From positions 1 through 49,241 of the forward strand of contig JAJECV010000109.1 of the NCBI GenBank assembly GCA_022821875.1: DNA of 49,241 bases, in the 5' to 3' direction. The notes beneath the pieces are model-generated. The model made no database searches, was not told where the DNA came from, and worked only from the letters and a program-made list of their open reading frames with translations. The position numbers and the translations under genes are program-made. Of this stretch, positions 11,072 through 23,608 are shown one piece after another (within the stretch, counting starts at the first letter, position 1; every line of letters starts with the position of its first letter). The stretch comes from Rhodothermales bacterium (GTDB taxonomy: Bacteria; Bacteroidota; Rhodothermia; Rhodothermales; Bin80).

Positions 11072-12142
11072 ATGAAAAAGTATACAATCTTTTCAAAAAC
11101 ATTGACTATCGCTGCGCTTGTTTTGAGCAGTGTGTCAATATCTTATGGACAGGCAGGTCTCACGCCGGATACGGAAGTGGAAACAGATAAGCGTGCCCAG
11201 ACGGGTATGAAATTCCTTAGCGTCTCGGTGGATGCACGGGCCTCTGCAATTGGTTCGGCGATGACAGCAGAGTTGTCAGGATCGTCGGTGTCCATGTTCT
11301 ATAACCCTGCCAGTATGGGCTTTATGCCCGGGCGTATGTCTGCGGCAGCAGCGAGTATATCATACATTGCAGATATCGGATATACGCAGGCCAGTATTGC
11401 TTTCCGTCCAGGTTCATCGGCGAATTATGGCGTTGTCGGGGTCTCGATTGTATCTGTGGACTATGGTGATTTTATTCGTACCGTTCGCGCGAATAACGAT
11501 GACGGTTTTATCGAAACCGGCACCTACAGTCCTACTGCAATGGCGGTTGGGCTCGGGTATGCCCGGTCCTTCGGTGACCGCTTCTCGGCCGGTGCCAATA
11601 TCAAACTGGCGTTCCAGGATTTTGGAACCGGATTTGCGACCTCACAGAATTTTGACAGCGGAGTCATTGCGACAACGGAAGACTACAGTACCCGAACGGT
11701 TGCATATGATTTCGGGATCGTATATGCAACCGGGTTTGAGAGCCTTGTGATCGGGATGAGTGCCCGCAACTTTGCCCAGGAGCAGATTTATGTGCGGGAA
11801 CGGTTTGAACTGCCGCTCACCTTCCAGATTGGGATGTCTATGAACCTGATTGATCTGACCTCCATCAATCCTGACATGCACAGCATTCAGCTGCATGTGG
11901 ACGCGCAGCGGCCGCGTGACTTTTCGGAGCATATTCGTTTCGGCATGGAATACACCTTCATGGATATGGTATCCTTACGTGGAGGGTTTGAGCAGCTGGG
12001 AGCTAGTGAGGAGCAGGGATTCAGTGCCGGTGCGGGACTCCGGTATGCATTCGGAGGCTTTAATGTCGGTGCAGATTATGCCTACACTGATTTTGGAGAG
12101 CTTGGTACCGTCAATCGGGTCGGGCTTCAGATCGGTCTCTAA
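11072..12142 (+). CDS. PorV/PorQ family outer-membrane beta-barrel protein
   Basis: A 356-aa outer-membrane barrel protein. The signal peptide is cleaved near SISYGQ (residue 27). The mature N-terminus has GMKFLSVSVDARASAIGSAMTA followed by SVSMFYNPASM, the hallmark of the PorV/PorQ (UPF0164-like) family, and the rest alternates short amphipathic strands. PorV is the T9SS shuttle protein that receives sorted substrates and passes them to the attachment complex. Here it follows a T9SS substrate directly, so it may be a dedicated partner of the 780-aa protein rather than the general PorV. The operon ends with a strong terminator at 12187-12227. Confidence 0.85.
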   Translation: MKKYTIFSKTLTIAALVLSSVSISYGQAGLTPDTEVETDKRAQTGMKFLSVSVDARASAIGSAMTAELSGSSVSMFYNPASMGFMPGRMSAAAASISYIADIGYTQASIAFRPGSSANYGVVGVSIVSVDYGDFIRTVRANNDDGFIETGTYSPTAMAVGLGYARSFGDRFSAGANIKLAFQDFGTGFATSQNFDSGVIATTEDYSTRTVAYDFGIVYATGFESLVIGMSARNFAQEQIYVRERFELPLTFQIGMSMNLIDLTSINPDMHSIQLHVDAQRPRDFSEHIRFGMEYTFMDMVSLRGGFEQLGASEEQGFSAGAGLRYAFGGFNVGADYAYTDFGELGTVNRVGLQIGL

Positions 12143-12186: not shown

Positions 12187-12227
12187 GGCGGAGAATTGGG
12201 CAAATTCCCAGTTCTCCGCCTTCTTTA
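12187..12227 (+). terminator. intrinsic terminator after PorV-like gene
   Basis: GGCGGAGAATTGGG (12187-12200) pairs with CCCAGTTCTCCGCC (12207-12220), a 14-bp stem with one G-T type mismatch and a 6-base loop, followed by TTCTTTA. This is the clearest Rho-independent terminator in the window. It separates the TonB receptor trio from the CRTAC1 gene run that starts at 12247. Confidence 0.8.
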
Positions 12228-12246
12228 TGAAAATGTGAGGGTTTGG

Positions 12247-13962
12247 ATGAACACTGCGGTTACTTGCGGGATTGTACTCCTCTTTGCAGTCTCGTTTTGG
12301 ATAACTGGCTGTCAGATGTCAGGGGATACTGCGCCGGATCAGGGGTTCATCCGGTTCACCGAAGTGACGGCCGAGGCGGGGCTCGCTGGATTCCGGCATG
12401 ATAACGGAGAAGATGGCGAGAAGTATTATGCGGAACAGATGGGGTCCGGAGCAGGCTTTATTGACTACGACGGAGATGGATGGCTGGACATAATACTTGC
12501 GGGGGGCGGATACTGGGATCGTGCCCCGCATTTCTGGTACAAGTCCCTGTGGATGTATCGAAATATGGGAGATGGCACGTTCATTGATGTAACCGGCGCA
12601 GCGGGATTGGAGGGGCTGGACGCATTCACGCTTGGCGTGGCCGCGGCGGACTATGATAATGATGGGGATCGGGATCTGTTGATTACCAGCCTGAATGAGA
12701 ATATGCTCCTGGAAAATAAGCAGGGTGTATTTCAGGCGCGGGAAGACGCAGGACTCAGTCTGGAGGATGAATGGAGCAGTTCCGCCATGTGGATGGACGG
12801 GAATCGGGATGGCCGGCTGGATGTGTATGTGGGCAATTATGCAGACTGGACCCCGGAAACCGATAAATTCTGCCCGGAAGGTGCGATGGAGAAACTCTAC
12901 TGTATTCCCGCGGATTACGAAGGCAGAGCCAGCCGTTATTATGAAGCGGCAGGGGACGGGACGTTTATGGATCGGACCCAGGAAGCGGGGGTGCATCATG
13001 CACTTGGGAAAGCACTGGGAATGGCGGAATGGGATTTTAATCAGGATGGGTGGCCGGATTTTGCGGTGGCGAATGATGGTGAGGGGGATCTTCTGTTTCT
13101 AAATAATCAGGATGGCACGTTCTCGGAGCGCGGAGTGCAGAGCGGGATTGCGTTCAGTGAGCATGGCGAGGCCCGCGCAGGGATGGGCATTGATATTGGT
13201 GTGGTGGATCAGACCGGTCACCCCTCGGTTTTTGTAGGAAATTTCTCCACCGAAATGATCGGCGTATACCGGTATTTGGGCAATGGTCTGTTTGCAGATC
13301 GTGCGGCACGGTCCCAGATCGGTCAGCCAAGCCTGAACACGCTCACCTTTGGGCTTATGCTGATGGATGTGGATCTGGATACAGATTTAGATCTGCTGGC
13401 TGCGAACGGACATGTGTACCCTGACCGGCTGGCTGGGCAGGATAAAATCACGTATGAGCAGCGGGCACAGCTGTTTGAAAATGACGGGACGGGCCTGTTT
13501 GCAGAAGTGCCTCCCTCAACGACCCCGCCGCTGGAGATTGAAATGGTTGCCCGCGGCGCAGCCTACGGAGATTATGATCGGGACGGGGATCTGGATATCC
13601 TCATTGTTGAAAACAATGGTCCGGCACATCTATGGCGAAATGAGGTCAGCGGGCGCAACTGGCTCCGCATCACGGTTACGGGGACGAATGGGAATCGGGA
13701 TGCCTTTGGGACGCATATCCGGGTATATGCAGGTGGGCAGGTTCAGCAGCGCCGGATCCGGTCAGGCGGCAGTTACCTGTCGCAGAATGAAATCGCTGCC
13801 GCATTCGGGATGCGGGAGGCGGCGGTTGTGGACAGTCTCCGTGTCAACTGGCCGGACGGACAGGTGCAGGTCTTCTATGATGTACCTGTGAATATTGAAG
13901 TTCATCTTACACAGGGACAAGAGGACTGGAACGAACGTCCGATGCCGGGTGCCGTCAACTGA
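12247..13962 (+). CDS. CRTAC1 family lipoprotein 1 (FG-GAP repeats, ASPIC/UnbV)
   Basis: A 571-aa predicted lipoprotein (lipobox ITGC, Cys22). The body is a beta-propeller of FG-GAP/VCBS repeats with calcium-binding DxDxDG loops: DYDGDGWLD, DYDNDGDRD, DGNRDGRLD, DFNQDGWPD, DVDLDTDLD and DYDRDGDLD. The C-terminal ~75 residues are an ASPIC/UnbV domain (NRDAFGTHIRVY, RRIRSGGSYLSQ, DSLRVNWPDG). Two cysteines sit in a C-x9-C-x-P-x2-Y-x-G segment shared by all three paralogs here. ATG 12247 is chosen over 12196 because it begins a lipoprotein signal and follows a GAGGG at good spacing. It is the first gene of the run. The molecular function of the family is not established. Confidence 0.9.
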   Translation: MNTAVTCGIVLLFAVSFWITGCQMSGDTAPDQGFIRFTEVTAEAGLAGFRHDNGEDGEKYYAEQMGSGAGFIDYDGDGWLDIILAGGGYWDRAPHFWYKSLWMYRNMGDGTFIDVTGAAGLEGLDAFTLGVAAADYDNDGDRDLLITSLNENMLLENKQGVFQAREDAGLSLEDEWSSSAMWMDGNRDGRLDVYVGNYADWTPETDKFCPEGAMEKLYCIPADYEGRASRYYEAAGDGTFMDRTQEAGVHHALGKALGMAEWDFNQDGWPDFAVANDGEGDLLFLNNQDGTFSERGVQSGIAFSEHGEARAGMGIDIGVVDQTGHPSVFVGNFSTEMIGVYRYLGNGLFADRAARSQIGQPSLNTLTFGLMLMDVDLDTDLDLLAANGHVYPDRLAGQDKITYEQRAQLFENDGTGLFAEVPPSTTPPLEIEMVARGAAYGDYDRDGDLDILIVENNGPAHLWRNEVSGRNWLRITVTGTNGNRDAFGTHIRVYAGGQVQQRRIRSGGSYLSQNEIAAAFGMREAAVVDSLRVNWPDGQVQVFYDVPVNIEVHLTQGQEDWNERPMPGAVN

Positions 13963-13965
13963 TTG

Positions 13966-15633
13966 ATGCGAAGTGCGATTACAGTATGTGTGGGGATTGC
14001 CCTGATTGCGGGGTGTTCGAGGGAGGCATCCAGGGATCCAGGTGCAGGGGAACCCCTGTTTACGGAGGTGACCCAGAGGGTTGGACTTGGAGGGGTGGCC
14101 CATAACCATGGAGGGATTGGGAATTCCTATGCACCGGAAATTGTTGGTGCGGGCGGGGCATTCTTTGACTATGATCAGGATGGCTGGCAGGATATTCTGG
14201 TGGCAACCGGAGGGGCATTTGCGGGGGAGCCGTCGCTCGGAGCACATCCGGCGCTGCGACTGTTCCGCAATCTTGGAGGAGACGGGTTTGAAGAGGTCAC
14301 GCAGCAGGCCGGCCTAGCCCTACTTCGCGCATATAGTCTGGGAATGACGGTCGGAGATTATGATGATGACGGGGATGAGGATGTCTATGTGACAGCGCTG
14401 GAAGAAGATCTGCTGCTGCGCAATACGGATGGTGTTTTTGAAGATGTTGCACAGGCCGCACAGGTTGGACAGATCCGTGAATGGAGTACGAGTGCCATGT
14501 TCTTTGATGCAAACCAGGACGGGTTTCTGGATCTCTATGTTGGAACGTATGTCCACTGGAGTCCGGATGAGGACATTTATTGCAGTTTTAATGAGCGTAA
14601 GGTGTACTGTACTCCGGAGGTGTATGATGGTATTGCCAGCCGTTATTACGAGAATCAGGGCGATGGAACGTTTGCCGATCTGACGAAAGAGGCGGGATTT
14701 CTGTCGGGAGTGGATCCGGTTCGGGACAAAACATTAGGCGTTGCGGAACTGGATGCGAATCAGGACGGATGGCCCGATGTGTTCATTGCCAACGATACGG
14801 AGCGGGACATGCTTTTTATGAATCAGGGCGATGGCACGTTTGTGGAGACCGGGGTCCCCAGCGGGATTGCCTATGATCAGCATGGGAAGCCGCGGGCCGG
14901 GATGGGCGTGGATATCGGGGTCGTGGATGAATCGGGCGAACCCTCTATCTTTGTGGGCAACTTCTCGGATGAGATGGTCGGTGTATACCGGCATATCGGA
15001 GGGGGGATATTTAATGACCGTGCGGCAGCATCCCGGATTGGGCAGCCCAGTCTGAAGACGCTCACCTTCGGCCTTGTTCTCTTTGATGTCGATCTGGATA
15101 CCGACCTGGATGTGCTGATCGCCAATGGGCATGTTCAGACACATATTGCCCAGATTGTGGATGGGGTGTCCTTTCGGCAGCGTCCACAATTATTTTTGAA
15201 TGACGGGACTGGCACCTTTGCCGAGATGCCGGCAGGCGGGCCATTGACGGAACCCTTTGTCGGTCGTGGACTTGCAGCCGGAGATTATGATCTAGACGGC
15301 GATCTGGATGTTCTTCTGGTTGAAAACAATGGTCCCATACATCTGTGGCGGAATGAGTCCGCGGGGAAGACATGGCTTCGGGTCAGGCTTACCGGAACAA
15401 GAAGCAATCGAAATGCATATGGTGCGCAGCTCCATTTGTGGAGTGGAGGGAACATGCAGGTCCGGCGTATTCGCTCGGGTTCCAGTTATCTGTCTCACTC
15501 GGAATCGGCCGCTTTTTTTGGCCTCCAGGGAGTGCCGGACAGTTTATGGGTCCGCTGGCCGAGTGGTCAGGAAATCTGGATAGATGATTTGCCGGTCAAT
15601 ACTACAGTCAACCTCATTGAAGATGAGTCGTAA
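13966..15633 (+). CDS. CRTAC1 family lipoprotein 2 (FG-GAP repeats, ASPIC/UnbV)
   Basis: A 555-aa predicted lipoprotein with lipobox IAGC (Cys17). It has the same architecture as the previous gene: DxDxDG loops (DYDQDGWQD, DYDDDGDED, DANQDGFLD, DANQDGWPD, DVDLDTDLD, DYDLDGDLD) and a terminal ASPIC/UnbV domain (NRNAYGAQLHLW, RRIRSGSSYLSH). The cysteine segment is C-x8-C-x-P-x2-Y-x-G. The gene starts three bases after the stop of paralog 1; a TTG at 13963 is a less likely start. Its closeness in sequence and order to the neighbours points to tandem duplication. Confidence 0.9.
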   Translation: MRSAITVCVGIALIAGCSREASRDPGAGEPLFTEVTQRVGLGGVAHNHGGIGNSYAPEIVGAGGAFFDYDQDGWQDILVATGGAFAGEPSLGAHPALRLFRNLGGDGFEEVTQQAGLALLRAYSLGMTVGDYDDDGDEDVYVTALEEDLLLRNTDGVFEDVAQAAQVGQIREWSTSAMFFDANQDGFLDLYVGTYVHWSPDEDIYCSFNERKVYCTPEVYDGIASRYYENQGDGTFADLTKEAGFLSGVDPVRDKTLGVAELDANQDGWPDVFIANDTERDMLFMNQGDGTFVETGVPSGIAYDQHGKPRAGMGVDIGVVDESGEPSIFVGNFSDEMVGVYRHIGGGIFNDRAAASRIGQPSLKTLTFGLVLFDVDLDTDLDVLIANGHVQTHIAQIVDGVSFRQRPQLFLNDGTGTFAEMPAGGPLTEPFVGRGLAAGDYDLDGDLDVLLVENNGPIHLWRNESAGKTWLRVRLTGTRSNRNAYGAQLHLWSGGNMQVRRIRSGSSYLSHSESAAFFGLQGVPDSLWVRWPSGQEIWIDDLPVNTTVNLIEDES

Positions 15634-17311
15634 GATTGCAATGCTCAAAATAGCGGGGATCATATTACTCTTTTTTGTGGCAGGATGTGGTCCATCCGGG
15701 TTGGAGCCAGAGAATTCCGAGGAGGAGCAGAACTTGGCAGCGATTGTATTTGAAGATGTGACGGCGGCCGCTGGTCTGGGAGATTTTCGGCACGAGACGG
15801 GGGCTTTTGGAGAAAAGTGGTTTCCGGAGACGATGGGAGCGGGGGGCGGTTTTCTGGATTATGATGATGATGGAATCCTGGATATTCTGCTGATCTCCGG
15901 CAGTATATTTCCATCAAGGGGGGCCGCTTCATCGCCCGCAATCCGCCTGTACCGCGGCAGCGGGGATGGACCATTCACCGAGGTGACCCGGGAGGCCGGA
16001 CTGGCCTCTCTTCGGAGTTATGCATTCGGGGTCAGCGTTGCAGATTATGATAATGATGGCGACTCGGATGTATTTGTAACGGCATTATTTGAGAATCTCC
16101 TGTTACGCAATGAAGAGGGAGTTTTTCGGGAGGTGAGTAAAGAAGCCGGTCTGGGAGATGATCGCGAATGGAGTTCGGCCAGTGTATTTCTGGATGCGGA
16201 TCAGGACGGGTTTCTGGATTTATATATCGGCAACTATGTTCACTGGACCCCTGAAGAGGATATTTACTGCACCCGTGTCGGAGACAAAAAATCCTACTGT
16301 ACGCCGGAGCAGTATGAGGGGATTACCGGGCGTTTCTACCGAAACCGGGGAGACGGCACCTTTGAAGAGCAGTCCGATGATTTTGCCGGTCTGCCCGGCA
16401 AAACGCTTGCCGCGGCAAGTATGGATTATAATCAGGATGGATGGCCGGATCTGATTGTTGCGAATGATACCCAGCGGGATCTGCTCTTTGAAAACCAGAG
16501 AGATGGCACCTTCGCGGAGAAGGGCATTGCCAGCGGGATTGCGTTTGACGAAAACGGGCGTGCACGCGCAGGAATGGGAATTGATATTGGTGTCGTAGAT
16601 GCGGCCGGTGGAGAGACCGTGTTCATCGGCCATTTCTCCGGCGAAATGGTGGGGGTCTACCGGCATGTGGGCAACGGGATTTTCACGGAGCGGGCGGCGG
16701 TTTCACAGATTGGCAGGCCAAGCCTGCGTACGTTGACCTTTGGGCTTTTGCTGGCGGACTTTGATCTGGACGAAGATCTGGATCTGGTCACCGCCAACGG
16801 TCACATTACCGAAGATATTGGAGAGGTGGAGGAAGGTGTTACGTTTCGGCAGCGGTCGCAGTTGTATGTGAATGTGGGGAATGGGAGATTCTCCGAGGCG
16901 GAGCCGACCGGTGTTTTTTCCGAGTTTATGGTGGCCCGGGGGGCTGCGTGGGCCGATTACGATCAGGATGGGGATCCAGACCTGCTCATCACCGAGAATG
17001 GCGGCCCCGTACATCTCTGGCGTAATGAGACGGAGGCAGGCAGTTCACTGACCGTGAAATTGGTCGGAATCACCAGTAACCGGGATGCCATTGGGAGCCG
17101 TGTGCGGGTATATGTGAATGGAACGTGGCAGGAGCGTTATGTGCGAAGCGGTACAAGTTACCTTTCTCAGAGTCAGCGCTGGCCCCTATTTGGATTGGGG
17201 GCGGCAGATTCCGTAGATTCACTGGAAGTGCATTGGCCAGGTGGTACGTTCACAGGCCGAACGGATGTCCCTGGCGGGACGATCACGATCAGGGAACCGA
17301 CGATCCAATGA
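15623..17311 (+). CDS. CRTAC1 family lipoprotein 3 (FG-GAP repeats, ASPIC/UnbV)
   Basis: A 562-aa predicted lipoprotein (lipobox VAGC, Cys22 from this start). Calcium-loop repeats DYDDDGILD, DYDNDGDSD, DADQDGFLD, DYNQDGWPD, DFDLDEDLD and DYDQDGDPD precede an ASPIC/UnbV domain (NRDAIGSRVRVY, RYVRSGTSYLSQ). The shared cysteine segment is C-x9-C-x-P-x2-Y-x-G. ATG 15623 overlaps the stop of paralog 2 by 11 bases; ATG 15641 would also give a workable signal peptide. It is the third tandem copy and is followed after 13 bases by a TPR lipoprotein gene. Confidence 0.9.
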   Translation: MSRKIAMLKIAGIILLFFVAGCGPSGLEPENSEEEQNLAAIVFEDVTAAAGLGDFRHETGAFGEKWFPETMGAGGGFLDYDDDGILDILLISGSIFPSRGAASSPAIRLYRGSGDGPFTEVTREAGLASLRSYAFGVSVADYDNDGDSDVFVTALFENLLLRNEEGVFREVSKEAGLGDDREWSSASVFLDADQDGFLDLYIGNYVHWTPEEDIYCTRVGDKKSYCTPEQYEGITGRFYRNRGDGTFEEQSDDFAGLPGKTLAAASMDYNQDGWPDLIVANDTQRDLLFENQRDGTFAEKGIASGIAFDENGRARAGMGIDIGVVDAAGGETVFIGHFSGEMVGVYRHVGNGIFTERAAVSQIGRPSLRTLTFGLLLADFDLDEDLDLVTANGHITEDIGEVEEGVTFRQRSQLYVNVGNGRFSEAEPTGVFSEFMVARGAAWADYDQDGDPDLLITENGGPVHLWRNETEAGSSLTVKLVGITSNRDAIGSRVRVYVNGTWQERYVRSGTSYLSQSQRWPLFGLGAADSVDSLEVHWPGGTFTGRTDVPGGTITIREPTIQ

Positions 17312-17324
17312 GCAGTCATTAAAA

Positions 17325-18701
17325 ATGCAGGTTTATCCAGATAAGAGGGCAAGTTCAGTTCCAGATCATTGTATTGGAGCAGTGCTAAAATCCCGGAATT
17401 TCGGCCACAGCCGCTGGCAGACTTATATAAGGGGAGGTGGCATCCTCTTGCTTTGTTTTTCGATATGGGCCGGTTGCCGTGAGCCGGTTGGGATTGCGCA
17501 GAAGCAGCGGAACAATCTCTCTCCACGGGTTGCCAGATACATGGTGGAGGCGGAAGGGGCATTCTCCAGGGGGGTATATGAAGTGGCGCTGGCTTACACT
17601 GACAGCGCGGAGGTTCTCATGCCGGAGCTGGCAGATCTGCATTATTTACGAGGAAAGATCTATACGCAGCTAAATCGTCTGGACATTGCGCAGGCCGCCT
17701 ATGATGTTGTTCTGGAGATTGACCCTGAGTATGCAGGTACTCGATTCAATATGGGACTGAACAGTTTTCGAAGGGGAAAACTTCGAGATGCGATCAATTA
17801 TTATCTGGAAGAGGAATCTGCAGTTGGTCCGACCCCCGCACTGTTTCATGAATTGGGCCGGGCTTATGCGAGGCTGGGGGTGCCGGATAGTGCACAGGAG
17901 GCCTATGAACAGGTGCTTGAACTGGACCCAGAGAATACGACCACCTACATGTGGCTTGGACAGCTCTTAGAGGAAACCGGAGATCTGGAAGGTGCGCTGG
18001 AGATGTCCCTGCACGGTCTCCGGCTGCGCCCGGATGATCTGGATTACCAGTATATCGTGGGGACGCAGTACTTCCGGCTGGATTCTGCTGAGGCTGCGCT
18101 TGCTTACCTTGAGCCCGTGGCTCAAAAATGGACATGGCATCACGGGGCGCAATTTAACCTCGGGCAGGTCTATATGCGGCTTGGGCGGGAAGTGGAAGCG
18201 GATGTATATTTTTCGAGGGCGGAGGAAGCGCAGCAGCTTCAGCAGCGCGTCACTGAGGCACAGAATGCGATTGACAATGATCCCAACTCGCCCGCGAACT
18301 GGATTGAACTTGCGAACCGGCTTCGTGAGTCCAAGCGGTATGATCGTGCGATTGAAGCGATCAAAAACGGGTTGGCCATTCGCGTTCCCCCTGGACTGGA
18401 GTTGTACATGCAGACAAATCTTGCGACATTGTACATGGAGTGCGGGAATCCCGATGAGGCGGCCGGAAGGTTTGAGGCAATCCTTCGTGCGGATCCGGAT
18501 CTAAGTGCGGCCAGGTTGAATCTAGGGATTGCATATGCTCAGGGGGGAAGGATTGAAGAGGCTCGTTCTGTCTGGCGTGAACTTCTGGAAAGAGAACCGG
18601 GGAATCTACCTGCACAGAATTATTTGGAACAGTTAGACACAATGGATCAAAATGACGACGATGCGGAAACTGACGCTGCTGATTGCCTGGATAGCACTTA
18701 G
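17325..18701 (+). CDS. tetratricopeptide repeat lipoprotein
   Basis: A 458-aa protein with a lipobox IWAGC (Cys51 from this start) and TPR-type helical repeats from about residue 70 to 445; clear ones contain LHYLRGKIYTQLNRLDIAQ, GRAYARLGVPDSAQEAYEQ and YMWLGQLLEETGDLEGAL. TPR arrays bind proteins, so it may scaffold the CRTAC1 lipoproteins in the same run; TPR and ASPIC/UnbV domains are often neighbours or fused. The 50-residue leader from ATG 17325 is long for a lipoprotein. A GTG at 17382 preceded by GGAG would give a 31-residue leader and may be the true start. It lies 13 bases after the third CRTAC1 gene. Confidence 0.85.
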   Translation: MQVYPDKRASSVPDHCIGAVLKSRNFGHSRWQTYIRGGGILLLCFSIWAGCREPVGIAQKQRNNLSPRVARYMVEAEGAFSRGVYEVALAYTDSAEVLMPELADLHYLRGKIYTQLNRLDIAQAAYDVVLEIDPEYAGTRFNMGLNSFRRGKLRDAINYYLEEESAVGPTPALFHELGRAYARLGVPDSAQEAYEQVLELDPENTTTYMWLGQLLEETGDLEGALEMSLHGLRLRPDDLDYQYIVGTQYFRLDSAEAALAYLEPVAQKWTWHHGAQFNLGQVYMRLGREVEADVYFSRAEEAQQLQQRVTEAQNAIDNDPNSPANWIELANRLRESKRYDRAIEAIKNGLAIRVPPGLELYMQTNLATLYMECGNPDEAAGRFEAILRADPDLSAARLNLGIAYAQGGRIEEARSVWRELLEREPGNLPAQNYLEQLDTMDQNDDDAETDAADCLDST

Positions 18702-19887
18702 TACAACGATGGACACGCAGTCCCAGATTATTCAGGATGGAGCATGGGTGGGACAGATCATTCATCGGAACGGCCGGTCCATGGATGTGACCTACAATGT
18801 TCAGAATGAGCATAACGGGTTGAAGATTGTGATGGAGGTCGAAGAATATGGGCCATTCCGGTTCAAGGATATACGGGTGACTGCTGACAGTCTCTTCTTT
18901 GTATGGGAGCCATCCTTTGAATTACCCTGCACACTGGTGCGACTCCGGGACGGGGTCTATCACGGCATGTGTGCAGATCCGTGGGGAGGGTATGGAGGAG
19001 CGATCATGGCTCCACCTGGTTCGGATAGAGATGCATTAATTCTGGATCAATCCACATTCAGCAGTATGACAGATCTGGATGAGAACGAGCTGGAGCCCGA
19101 AGAATGGCGGTTAGGGGATGCATACCCAGTGGGAAAAGTGGTAAAGGTCAATGGATTGGATGTGAATTATGTTGATGCGGGCACGGGTACCGAGGCGGTG
19201 GTGCTCATTGCAGGGATGGGGGATAACCTCACGACCTGGGAGACGCTTCAGCAGAGTTTGGCACAGAACATCCGCACCATTGCGTATGATCGCCCCGGTT
19301 TAGGTTTATCCAAGGCATCCCGAATACCTCGTACTCTGGATGAGACGGCATCCGAACTGAGCGCCCTGCTTCAGAGCATCGATGCTCCTGCCCCTTATCT
19401 ATTGGTGGCACATGCCGAGGGGAGTTTGATTGCACGCCGGTTTGCAGATTTGTATGGGGAGCGGGTTCGTGGACTGGTTCTTGTTGATCCTCACCACGAA
19501 AATCAGGCCCAGATATGGACGGCGTTTGATGCGAAGGCATGGCAGTCGTACTGGGGCCGACTGAAACGTTTTCAGTCCATGCTTCCGGGTGGAGTCGGTC
19601 AGGAGTTCCGGGCATATGCTCAAATCATTGAACAAGAGGCCGGACAGGAACTTGCCTCCGTGCCTTCGCACCCGACCGCAGTTCTGACAGCCGGACGCGT
19701 GTCCGATACGCCGGTTTGGGTAGGGGAGTCGCAGCGGGGGCGTGAGGTCTGGACGGAGTTTCATGCTTCATGGGTGGAAAAGATGGAGGACGGCATCCAT
19801 CTTATCCTGGAATCCGGTCCAAATATTCATCAGGAACAGCCCGGCAAGGTGGAGCAGATTATTCGGGATATGTTATCCGGGAACTAG
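18652..19887 (+). CDS. alpha/beta hydrolase fold protein lacking catalytic residues
   Basis: A 411-aa exported protein (hydrophobic leader, residues 5-20). Residues about 28-125 form a small beta-rich N-terminal domain; residues about 165-411 are an alpha/beta hydrolase fold with AYDRPGLGLS at 211-220 and GLVLVDPHH at 274-282. The nucleophile elbow, normally G-H-S-x-G-G, reads AHAEGS (253-258), placing Ala255 where the serine should be. The usual catalytic His of the SGH motif is replaced by proline (SGP, 388-390). It is therefore probably a pseudoenzyme or binding protein. The start overlaps the TPR stop by 50 bases (an alternative ATG is at 18661). Its stop directly abuts the stop of the convergent LRR gene. 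Confidence 0.8.
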   Translation: MTTMRKLTLLIAWIALSTTMDTQSQIIQDGAWVGQIIHRNGRSMDVTYNVQNEHNGLKIVMEVEEYGPFRFKDIRVTADSLFFVWEPSFELPCTLVRLRDGVYHGMCADPWGGYGGAIMAPPGSDRDALILDQSTFSSMTDLDENELEPEEWRLGDAYPVGKVVKVNGLDVNYVDAGTGTEAVVLIAGMGDNLTTWETLQQSLAQNIRTIAYDRPGLGLSKASRIPRTLDETASELSALLQSIDAPAPYLLVAHAEGSLIARRFADLYGERVRGLVLVDPHHENQAQIWTAFDAKAWQSYWGRLKRFQSMLPGGVGQEFRAYAQIIEQEAGQELASVPSHPTAVLTAGRVSDTPVWVGESQRGREVWTEFHASWVEKMEDGIHLILESGPNIHQEQPGKVEQIIRDMLSGN

Positions 19888-21888
19888 TTATCGCACACGC
19901 GTGATTTTCTCGGAGGAGACGGGATGGCCGTCAAGGAAACTGTGAATAAAATAGGTGCCGCTGGGCAGGCTTTCCGACTCCAGGATGATGCGGGTCGGCT
20001 GATGCAGTGCAGGTGTTCCGCTGAAAAGTGTCCGGACTCGGCGGCCAATGAGGTCATACAGGTGGATTTCAACGGCTCCCTGTCTGCCGGAGGTAAATTC
20101 AAGGATTGCCTCTGAGGAGAATGGATTGGGGTAGGTGGTACTTACCTCAAGAACATCTGCATAGAGTTCAACCGTAAGGGGGGCCGTGGCCCTGAACGAA
20201 CCGGATGCCGTGATCTGGCGGATCTGAAATGAATAGGATCCAGGTTCCAGATCTGCAATGGTGAACGAAAAATTACTAGGTGCTTCTGCACGGCCGGGCA
20301 TTTCAGCGAGAATGGCAGGCGGTTCAGTCTGTTCGACCATAAATGTAATTCCGGCCGAGGACTGGGTTGTAGACCATACCAGTTGAATGGAGCGTTCCCC
20401 CGGGACTGCACGCAACGCATTGAACGCGACAAAGTCGTAGCCCAGACAATCTTTACGCAGCGGCAATTGACAGATCGGGTTCGCGTTCAGCGCAACGTAC
20501 ATGTCATTATCCGGCAGGCAGATGCCTGCATTTTCCGACAGGTTGCACTGATTCAGTTTTGTACCGAGTGCGGCCACTTGCAGGGGCAGGATCCCGGTAA
20601 GTTCGTTGCGGCTGAGATCCAGGGTTTTGAGTTCACGCAGTCCGGCGTACTCCTCCGGAATCTCACCCTGCAGGTTGTTTTGGGAGAGGTCAAGTATCTG
20701 GAGGCTGGACAGAGAGGATAAGGAGCGGGGCAGGTCACCAGTGAGTTGATTTTCGGACAGGATGATACGGGTAATGACCTCACTGGAACAGGTAATGCCA
20801 TGCCAATCGCATGGATCTGAACTGGCAAGCCAGCCATCAGTTTGCAGCCAGGAAACTCCACCCGTTTCAAGGTACATGGATTCCAGACTCCGGCAGTCCT
20901 CCCTCTGGCATGCTTTGCAGGAACTTTGCGGGGAGAGAGAACACACTTGGTCAAAATTTGCGTAGGGAGGAGCATCGGGCAGACAAATAAGATTCCCTCC
21001 CATCTGGCAGTTGGTAATGTTGGCGGCGTGAGTTGCTGCGGTGAGCGAAAGTGCCCCGCTCAGGTTGTTATCCGCGAGGGAGAACCATACGAGTTGATTC
21101 AATTGAGTCAGTTCTTCGGGTACGGTTCCAGAAAACATATTTTCGCTGACATCAAAAAACTTGAGAGCACTCAGGTTTCCCGACCAGGCTGGAAGATTTC
21201 CATGAAAGAGGTTCTGGCTCAGATCCAGATGTTCAAGTTCAGTGAGGTGGTGGAGTGAGTCAGGGATGGATCCACCCAAGGTGTTCCCGCTGAGATCAAG
21301 GTGTTGTAACCGGGTTAACTTCCCAAGTCGCTGAGGTATGACCCCCTCTAATTCATTATCTCCTAGACTGAGTTCACGAAGATTGATCAGGTTTCCCAGT
21401 TCTGGCGGGATCGTACCGGTAAAGGCATTATTGCCGAGCAAAAGGACTTCCAGATGCTCCAGATCTCCGAGTGTATTGGGGATCCGATGGATCAGTTTTC
21501 TCTGGCGGACTCCCGGGCCGCTGTTATCAATGCGGATGGATTGTAATTCTGTCAGGAAAGCCAGGTCGCCGGGGAGCGTACCCCTGAGGTCGTTTCCGGA
21601 CAGATCAATATGAATGATTTCTCTGGGCCATTCCGAGGATTGACAGGTAATCCCGTACCAGTCACATGGCTGATTCGTTCGGAGCCATCCGCGCACATTC
21701 CGCCAGTTATATCCGTCGGTTTCATAGAAGAGTTTTTCCAGAACTTTACAGTCTTCCAGGGTGATCTGATCAATAAGGCGGCAGCCCAGAAACTGTGCAT
21801 GGGAGACCGTTGCATGAGAAACTGCGACGGCAAGAATCAACGGAACAGCGCGGGCCATATGCACAGGAGTCTGTGAATCCCTTACCAT
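19888..21888 (-). CDS. T9SS-sorted protein with two plant-type LRR modules
   Basis: About 666 aa, secreted (signal ending near VSHAQ). Two similar modules each begin with an LRRNT_2-like cap: DCKVLEKLFYETDGYNW...CDWYGITC (about 45-80) and DCRSLESMYLETGGVSW...CDWHGITC (about 330-365). The first cap is followed by about seven and the second by about three repeats of the plant-type consensus LxxLxLxxNxLxGxIP. A beta-sandwich linker precedes a C-terminal T9SS sorting domain (TTYPNPFSSEAILEF, IHLYDLIGRRV, SLPSGTYFI). The start is uncertain: ATG 21888 or 21858 give good signal peptides, while 21993 adds unlikely residues. Probably a surface adhesin or recognition protein; the ligand is unknown. Confidence 0.85.
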   Translation of the reverse strand: MVRDSQTPVHMARAVPLILAVAVSHATVSHAQFLGCRLIDQITLEDCKVLEKLFYETDGYNWRNVRGWLRTNQPCDWYGITCQSSEWPREIIHIDLSGNDLRGTLPGDLAFLTELQSIRIDNSGPGVRQRKLIHRIPNTLGDLEHLEVLLLGNNAFTGTIPPELGNLINLRELSLGDNELEGVIPQRLGKLTRLQHLDLSGNTLGGSIPDSLHHLTELEHLDLSQNLFHGNLPAWSGNLSALKFFDVSENMFSGTVPEELTQLNQLVWFSLADNNLSGALSLTAATHAANITNCQMGGNLICLPDAPPYANFDQVCSLSPQSSCKACQREDCRSLESMYLETGGVSWLQTDGWLASSDPCDWHGITCSSEVITRIILSENQLTGDLPRSLSSLSSLQILDLSQNNLQGEIPEEYAGLRELKTLDLSRNELTGILPLQVAALGTKLNQCNLSENAGICLPDNDMYVALNANPICQLPLRKDCLGYDFVAFNALRAVPGERSIQLVWSTTQSSAGITFMVEQTEPPAILAEMPGRAEAPSNFSFTIADLEPGSYSFQIRQITASGSFRATAPLTVELYADVLEVSTTYPNPFSSEAILEFTSGRQGAVEIHLYDLIGRRVRTLFSGTPALHQPTRIILESESLPSGTYFIHSFLDGHPVSSEKITRVR

Positions 21889-22077
21889 TCTGTGTCTGGG
21901 TTGTTCGTGATTCCGGGAGTCTATAGTTGCCGGATCACGCTCATCAACCGGCACCAAATTGCGGTGTATCCGCAAGTGGGCGTATGGGGGCACGTCAAAT
22001 TTTACGCGGCTGTGAGATACAACAGCGCAGAGGGATATAAGTCCGAGTCAGAATATCAGCACTCAAAAAGAGCCGTT

Positions 22078-22793: not shown

Positions 22794-23608
22794 ATGCCAA
22801 ATTGTACAAAACGGCTGAATCGGACGCATCCCTTGGTGCGTGCCAAGCATGACCGGAGGTTGAACAGGACTGAGCGAAAACAGAACCGGGATCAGTTGAC
22901 CTTATTCAATAAGATGCGCAGTGCAATGCCTGCGGGCGTGATTTATGTGGATGTACAGGCGATGAGTAGTCGGCAGAAGTCGGGTCGGATTACGAGCAAA
23001 GGCCATCCGGCGTGGAATGCGCGAATGCAACTGCGATTTTGCAAAGCGATGCTCCTGCCAACGAAGAACCGATCCAGCCCTATGCCAATCCGGTGCATTT
23101 ACATGTCGGAACTCAGTCTGACAGAAAATATAGTGTCCATTCAATGGTATCTGCTGACTATCAGAGAGATCATCAGTGCGGCGGAAGTGAAGCAGATGGT
23201 GGACTGTTACGTGCTCCGCTGGCAGGTTGAAGATACCTTCCGTGTCCTCAAAACCGGATGTCAGGTGGAAAAACTGTGTATGAAGAAGGATGCCTCACTG
23301 CATCGGGAGGTTACGCTGAATATGGTCGTGGTCTGGCGTATCATGCTGATGTTTTTGACGTATATGGCAGGACTACCTCCCACATCTCACCCGTACCGGC
23401 GATTCTGACTGAACCCTGTCCAACTGCTCACGTTATAACCTGTAGCGGGGGCGTGATGAATATCATTTACGGGCGAAATCTCAAAATGAGTATTTTGTCG
23501 AGTAGCCTGGGAAATCTCACATCCAAACTACTCCGCAGCGGAAAGCCAGGGGAGTATTTTTGTGGCCGTATGCAAGATTCCTTCCAGCCGGCCGGCTCCC
23601 TGAAATAA
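22794..23608 (+). pseudogene. decayed IS4/Tn5-type transposase fragment
   Basis: The frame from 22794 to 23408 matches the C-terminal half of IS4-family (Tn5-like) transposases: HPLVRAKHDRRLNR, then the linker domain, WYLLTIREI, and the diagnostic YREK signature Y-x2-R-x3-E-x6-K in YVLRWQVEDTFRVLK, followed by TGCQVEKL. The last catalytic Glu is thus kept, but the N-terminal half with the two catalytic Asp residues is missing. After MAGLPP a frameshift moves the C-terminal tail (LGNLTSKLLRSGKPGEYF...) to the frame ending at 23608. I find no matching terminal inverted repeats. The 284 bases upstream (22507-22790) show no gene. A dead remnant of an insertion. Confidence 0.75.

Follow-up and report, generated by a model that had tools for sequence, protein, structure and literature searches.

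A predicted non-catalytic alpha/beta-hydrolase family with an N-terminal beta-rich domain, encoded beside UnbV and TPR genes in Rhodothermales

In the alpha/beta-hydrolase superfamily, the nucleophile is placed between strand 5 and helix C, and the catalytic histidine between strand 8 and helix F (PMC11878206). Some members are non-catalytic, and the same account names DUF687, DUF3530, Arb2, and CGI-58 among them (PMC11878206). CGI-58, i.e., ABHD5, is an alpha/beta-hydrolase without the catalytic serine and acts as a co-factor of lipases (PMC11878206). The non-catalytic families that this source describes are few, and most of them are presented as unstudied (PMC11878206).

A candidate gene of this kind was analyzed in the DNA of a Rhodothermales bacterium. 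The source is a draft genome of 147 contigs (G000), and the window, i.e., the whole stretch of 49,241 nucleotides that was analyzed, is its contig C4. The pseudo-alpha/beta-hydrolase gene, hereafter pseudohydrolase, was read as an ORF at 18652-19887 on the forward strand, with 411 codons and no internal stops. Translation likely starts at the second Met, at 18661, because most orthologs of the same genus begin at the residue aligned with Met4. Residues 4-24 (18661-18723, forward strand) resemble a signal peptide in the ortholog alignment. The stretch ends in A-x-A or S ahead of Gln in many orthologs, and this Gln25 is invariant within ortholog family f1. The assignment as a signal peptide follows a cleavage rule that we take to apply here. 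An exported protein is suggested by this N-terminus.

Domain architecture and altered catalytic positions

Two domains were recognized behind the signal-like stretch. The first, a beta-rich domain at residues 26-123 (18727-19020, forward strand), matched no Pfam family in the Pfam profile comparison. Its strands appear solely in a low-confidence full-length structure model (mean pLDDT 37), which was built with one ortholog of 96% identity and was used for the strands only. Cys93 and Cys107 of this domain are invariant in all 23 orthologs described below, and a disulfide between them may be formed. The extra N-terminal beta domain proposed in the first-pass annotation was upheld. Short stretches or ORFs resembling this domain alone were also observed in further genomes from the order and the class, not near UnbV or TPR genes (L083:1822-2217, L085:9682-9987, L086:9919-10287, L087:6750-7103, and L088:9730-10032). 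In eight contexts of such ORFs, the domain itself was re-detected in five, and the operon partners were found in none.

The second is the alpha/beta-hydrolase domain, at residues 160-409 (19129-19878, forward strand), recognized by Pfam profiles and by a domain model. Abhydrolase_6 (PF12697) matched residues 183-400 with 48.9 bits against a cut-off of 26.3, and Abhydrolase_1 (PF00561) matched with 46.3 bits against 25.8. The domain model was built from a seven-row alignment, and its numbering is the window residue minus 154. It reached a mean pLDDT of 73.4 and a pTM of 0.72, and its best VIA match was 1zoi_A (Z 25.0, rmsd 2.1, 191 aligned). Both the profiles and the three-dimensional fold place the domain in the alpha/beta-hydrolases. 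The model is poor at residues of approximately 329-350 (pLDDT below 50). Its strand 7 (residues 355-360) is based on a doubtful alignment and is probably misassigned; the family alignment sets this strand at approximately 342-348.

The nucleophile elbow reads AHAEG at residues 253-257 (19408-19422, forward strand). Within LLVAHAEGS, codon 255 (19414-19416) is GCC, i.e., Ala in the Ser slot. The histidine loop reads SGPNIHQE at residues 388-395 (19813-19836, forward strand), and codon 390 (19819-19821), within ESGPNIHQEQP, is CCA, i.e., Pro in the His slot. Five GHS-type relatives (L029, L030, L032, L033, and L080), the nearest of such type in the order and class, were used for comparison. Ala255 aligns on the Ser of their GHS[ML]GG motif, and Pro390 on the His of their SGH. 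In the domain model, residue 255 is found at the end of strand 5, ahead of helix C, and the loop that connects strand 8 with helix F contains residue 390. An active alpha/beta-hydrolase has a nucleophile (Ser, Cys, or Asp) in its elbow and a His after strand 8, ahead of helix F; here these places hold Ala255 and Pro390. The earlier reading from the letters, that both the nucleophile and the catalytic histidine are replaced, was therefore confirmed by the alignment and by the model, in which both residues occupy the canonical places. It is most likely, judging from these substitutions, that the pseudohydrolase is catalytically dead.

When profiles were compared with solved structures, the elbow fell on the AHD elbow of the Cif-type epoxide hydrolases. 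The His loop was aligned there with SGHF of 7jqz, in a stretch without significance on its own. The ambiguity of strand 7 and of the acid position might suggest that the Ser and His slots were misaligned and that the true nucleophile and base are elsewhere. However, both motifs match those of the relatives closely, the elbow with GHS[ML]GG and the His loop with SGH, and both sit canonically in the model. Moreover, only one Ser within the domain is kept in at least 22 of the 23 orthologs, i.e., Ser220, part of the DRxGxGxS motif common to the GHS-type relatives, and the only His so kept is His254. A misalignment is considered very improbable.

Orthologs, substitutions and selection

Full-length matches were found in 23 genomes, the window genome included, when 195 genomes were searched. 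When 114 genomes of the order were searched with a profile, these 23 were recovered, all with E below 1e-70; another four matches, with E from 1e-26 to 1e-31, were confined to the hydrolase domain. The 23 orthologs belong to three families, i.e., f1 with 16 (ten of the genus), f12 with one, and f15 with six. The other f12 genome, G037, gave no full-length match in the order profile search.

In slot 255, the orthologs have Ala (16), Gly (6), or Asp (1), and Ser or Cys in none. In slot 390, His was found in 0 of 23; the residues are Pro (8), Ser (6), Thr (1), and Ala (1) in f1, Ser in f12, and Thr in all six of f15. Both catalytic residues are absent from every full-length ortholog, so the search for orthologs with intact Ser and His left the pseudoenzyme reading of the first-pass annotation standing. 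Its proposed check on the conservation of the two substituted residues gave a divided answer. Ala255 is invariant in f1 (16/16), encoded by GCC, GCA, and GCG, whereas Pro390 is kept in 8 of 16. The pair of Ala and Pro is not a family signature, since Pro390 is variable and the ortholog of genome G026 has Asp. Ala255 looks selected from these alignments, and SGP is a loss, because what is conserved at position 390 is the absence of His and not Pro itself.

The G026 ortholog, of family f12 (L055:8846-10189, also in L022), has an AHDAGA elbow with Asp in the nucleophile slot. The catalytic His of this ortholog is replaced by Ser.

The protein might still be an enzyme with non-canonical chemistry, e.g., acid catalysis by Asp213/Glu256 or by the elbow His254. 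His254, Tyr212, Arg214, Tyr249, Tyr300, Glu318, and Glu395 are kept in 23/23, Asp213 in 17/23, and Glu256 in 14/23. Serine-free members with a D/E-H dyad have been described (PMC11878206), and the Asp in the nucleophile slot of G026 is the residue that epoxide hydrolases use, which makes this ortholog the best hope for leftover chemistry. However, the serine-free enzymes described there use a D/E-H dyad, and the catalytic His is missing in 23/23, G026 included. Asp213 is changed to Ser in f15, Glu256 to Leu, Ala, or Gly elsewhere, and His254 is the H of GHS, common to the GHS-type relatives. A remaining enzymatic activity is thus rather improbable, and the reading as a dead hydrolase is preferred.

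The nearest relatives beyond the pseudohydrolase family keep the catalytic Ser and His. The nearest relatives elsewhere in the phylum (L131-L135, all five fetched) showed a GHS or GWS elbow and an SGH or SSH His loop. No protein that combines both domains with an intact Ser and His was among the matches listed for the 195 relatives, or among those listed for 244 genomes of the class (E up to 1e-20) or 395 genomes of the phylum (E up to 1e-25), the three genome sets overlapping with each other. Beyond the 23, the listed matches span one of the two domains only. One of the phylum proteins, of another family (L132:158-2371, 738 residues), has a C-terminal alpha/beta-hydrolase domain with a GWSWGG elbow and SGH. 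By eye, its N-terminal part resembles a serine hydrolase of the beta-lactamase type, and a TPR-like stretch comes after it.

Over seven pairs of orthologs, dN/dS was 0.07-0.23; in three of the pairs dS exceeds 1, and the values of these three are rough. No internal stops were found in the aligned ortholog rows. The loss of key residues could be taken as the mark of a decaying gene or of a recent point inactivation in one genome. However, the residues are missing from all the orthologs, the rows are free of stops, dN/dS is low, and the operon place is kept, and the probability of decay is considered negligible. The first-pass annotation had likewise taken the intact frame as a sign against simple decay, and its argument holds.

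The conservation within f1 was compared between regions. For 44 positions lining the active site, a loop set chosen by us, mean entropy was 0.63 bits, versus 1.37 bits for the remaining domain, and none of 249 circular shifts gave a value as low. Mean entropy was 0.85 bits in the N-terminal domain and 1.47 bits in the linker. The loop conservation is partly that of generic fold motifs and is alone no proof of binding.

In a quick-search tree built from 48 rows of the hydrolase domain, a branch with SH-aLRT 81 separated the 23 orthologs from the remaining rows. In the same tree, f12 and f15 were grouped with SH-aLRT 92, and f1 with 62. This topology is compatible with a single loss of catalysis, without proving it. 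With several long branches, this quick tree leaves Ser, Ala, Gly, and Asp as candidate ancestral states of slot 255.

Because the residues are absent in 23/23, dN/dS is low, the gene context is kept, and the outside relatives are intact, this is a pseudohydrolase family of old standing, kept by purifying selection on frame, fold, and pocket-forming loops, in which the hydrolase domain is joined to the beta-rich domain at the N-terminus. The lineage-wide loss of residues, the kept fold, and the purifying selection are those of the non-catalytic alpha/beta-hydrolases.

Gene neighborhood and proposed role

In the window, the pseudohydrolase is preceded by five genes on the forward strand. The first is a PorV/PorQ family outer-membrane protein (11072-12142; NF033709, 175 bits against a cut-off of 90). 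It is followed by three FG-GAP/UnbV_ASPIC proteins of CRTAC1-like type (12196-13962, 13963-15633, and 15584-17311), each with a lipobox-like motif. The TPR protein is listed as an ORF at 17241-18701, the end of which shares 50 bases with the pseudohydrolase ORF. Its real start is probably later than 17241, because a lipobox-like WAGC is found approximately 75 residues into the listed ORF. The PorV family match and the lipobox-like motifs would place these partner proteins at the envelope. Also upstream in the window are a TonB-linked receptor, SusC/RagA-like in its N-terminal part, and a protein whose tail is weakly PorZ-like. The convergent gene at 19888-21993 (reverse strand), which encodes an LRR protein whose tail weakly matches a T9SS type-A sorting signal, was left outside the operon count. 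A 204-aa ORF at 22794-23408 resembles, by eye, a transposase fragment.

The arrangement was compared among the fetched ortholog contexts. The TPR gene is upstream of the pseudohydrolase in 22 of 22, across families f1, f12, and f15, which upholds the operon position beside CRTAC1/TPR genes given in the first-pass annotation. It directly precedes the pseudohydrolase in 21; the exception is G026, where two reverse-strand genes are placed between them. Two or three UnbV genes are ahead of the TPR gene in 21/22, and in L091 the contig ends inside the TPR gene. The three tandem UnbV paralogs of the window (12196-17311) correspond to two in the f15 and G026 contexts. The UnbV-TPR operon usually has a PorV-family gene at its head. 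In the first set of 20 contexts, PorV was matched in 16, and for two of the other four the available sequence stops at, or near, the first UnbV gene. In the second set, one context out of two gave a PorV match. The downstream convergent LRR gene was found in 10/20 contexts of the first set.

The TPR homolog (E up to 1e-60) was also found beside UnbV genes in nine genomes without a full-length pseudohydrolase, and no hydrolase-domain match (E up to 1e-3) was found in any of these nine contexts. Directly after the TPR gene, G044 has an LRR gene, G035 presumably a sulfatase-like ORF, and G023 an ORF that we take to be QueE-like. The pseudohydrolase is an added part of some UnbV-TPR modules and not their core, because these nine genomes keep TPR and UnbV without it. 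A second UnbV-TPR pair was observed in the window genome itself (L110, G000:C62:6000-25000), with no hydrolase-domain match nearby.

A binding or structural role, which had been suggested from the letters, is also what we infer. The reading we prefer, with a probability of roughly 0.6, is that the protein is non-catalytic, makes use of its pocket, and belongs to the PorV/UnbV/TPR module of the outer membrane as a subunit for sensing or scaffolding. The signal peptide would deliver it to the periplasm or the cell surface, and the Cys93-Cys107 disulfide would brace the N-terminal domain. The old active-site pocket would bind a small ligand, or the end of a peptide or lipid, without chemistry, while the protein serves the module as sensor or scaffold. 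Two observations count against the subunit role, i.e., the module persists without the pseudohydrolase in nine genomes, and the G026 gene is set apart from the TPR gene.

A purely structural partner is unlikely. The hydrolase domain would then offer UnbV or TPR proteins a surface to dock on, and its pocket would hold no ligand. The fixed position directly behind the TPR gene agrees with docking, and the non-catalytic alpha/beta-hydrolase domain of Arb2 serves protein contacts (PMC11878206). However, the conserved positions cluster in the pocket loops, a pattern more in line with the pocket-using subunit. Going further, and only tentatively, the dead hydrolase may have been recruited to an outer-membrane machine not yet described, as the subunit that binds a ligand or acts as a gate, and would hold or read a molecule that its ancestor would have cut. 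The parts of this proposed machine would be the PorV-type barrel, two or three CRTAC1/UnbV propeller lipoproteins, and the TPR lipoprotein.

The family has meaning as a clean case of its kind. The catalytic residues are absent throughout, a fixed Ala stands in the serine slot of f1, and the pocket loops are stricter than the rest. The conserved gene neighborhood names candidate partners. Two questions become testable through this family: why a dead hydrolase pocket is kept, and which function is served by UnbV/CRTAC1-TPR operons that include a PorV-type barrel. For a specialist, the surprise is moderate.

Comparison with described families

The esterase-like proteins of Abhydrolase_6 and Abhydrolase_1 are alike in fold, DRPGxGxS loop, elbow, and SGxxIHxExP loop. 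The single-domain proteins of these families that are nearest in sequence keep Ser and His, whereas the pseudohydrolase has neither and carries the N-terminal domain in addition. Among solved structures, the Cif/Cfl epoxide hydrolases (PDB 3kd2 and 7jqz), with their AHD elbow, were the best profile sequence matches. Cfl2 (7jqz) was rejected as a possible pseudoenzyme relative, as it keeps the epoxide-hydrolase motifs according to its description (PMC8244358).

DUF3530 (PF12048) of Pseudomonas is likewise described as without the triad and in a conserved envelope-related neighborhood (PMC11878206). Its neighbor is LptD, whereas that of the pseudohydrolase is PorV-UnbV-TPR, and the extra N-terminal domain is found in the pseudohydrolase. 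None of 17 members matched PF12048 in Pfam at E up to 5.

The NDR/NDRG family (PF03096) is likewise of the alpha/beta-hydrolase fold without catalytic residues. PF03096 gave weak matches for 9 of the 17 members. The window protein scored 14.5 bits, below the cut-off of 23.3, and the best E-value among the other members was 0.00013. Compared with NDR/NDRG, the pseudohydrolase is bacterial, predicted to be exported, and has an extra domain. CGI-58/ABHD5, which is eukaryotic, likewise lacks the catalytic serine, a likeness by description.

In the open-access literature searched, by titles and the starts of abstracts, no description of the pseudohydrolase family was found. The family matches no compared Pfam non-catalytic model, i.e., DUF3530 or NDR, and, judged by its sequences, it belongs among the accepted non-catalytic alpha/beta-hydrolases.
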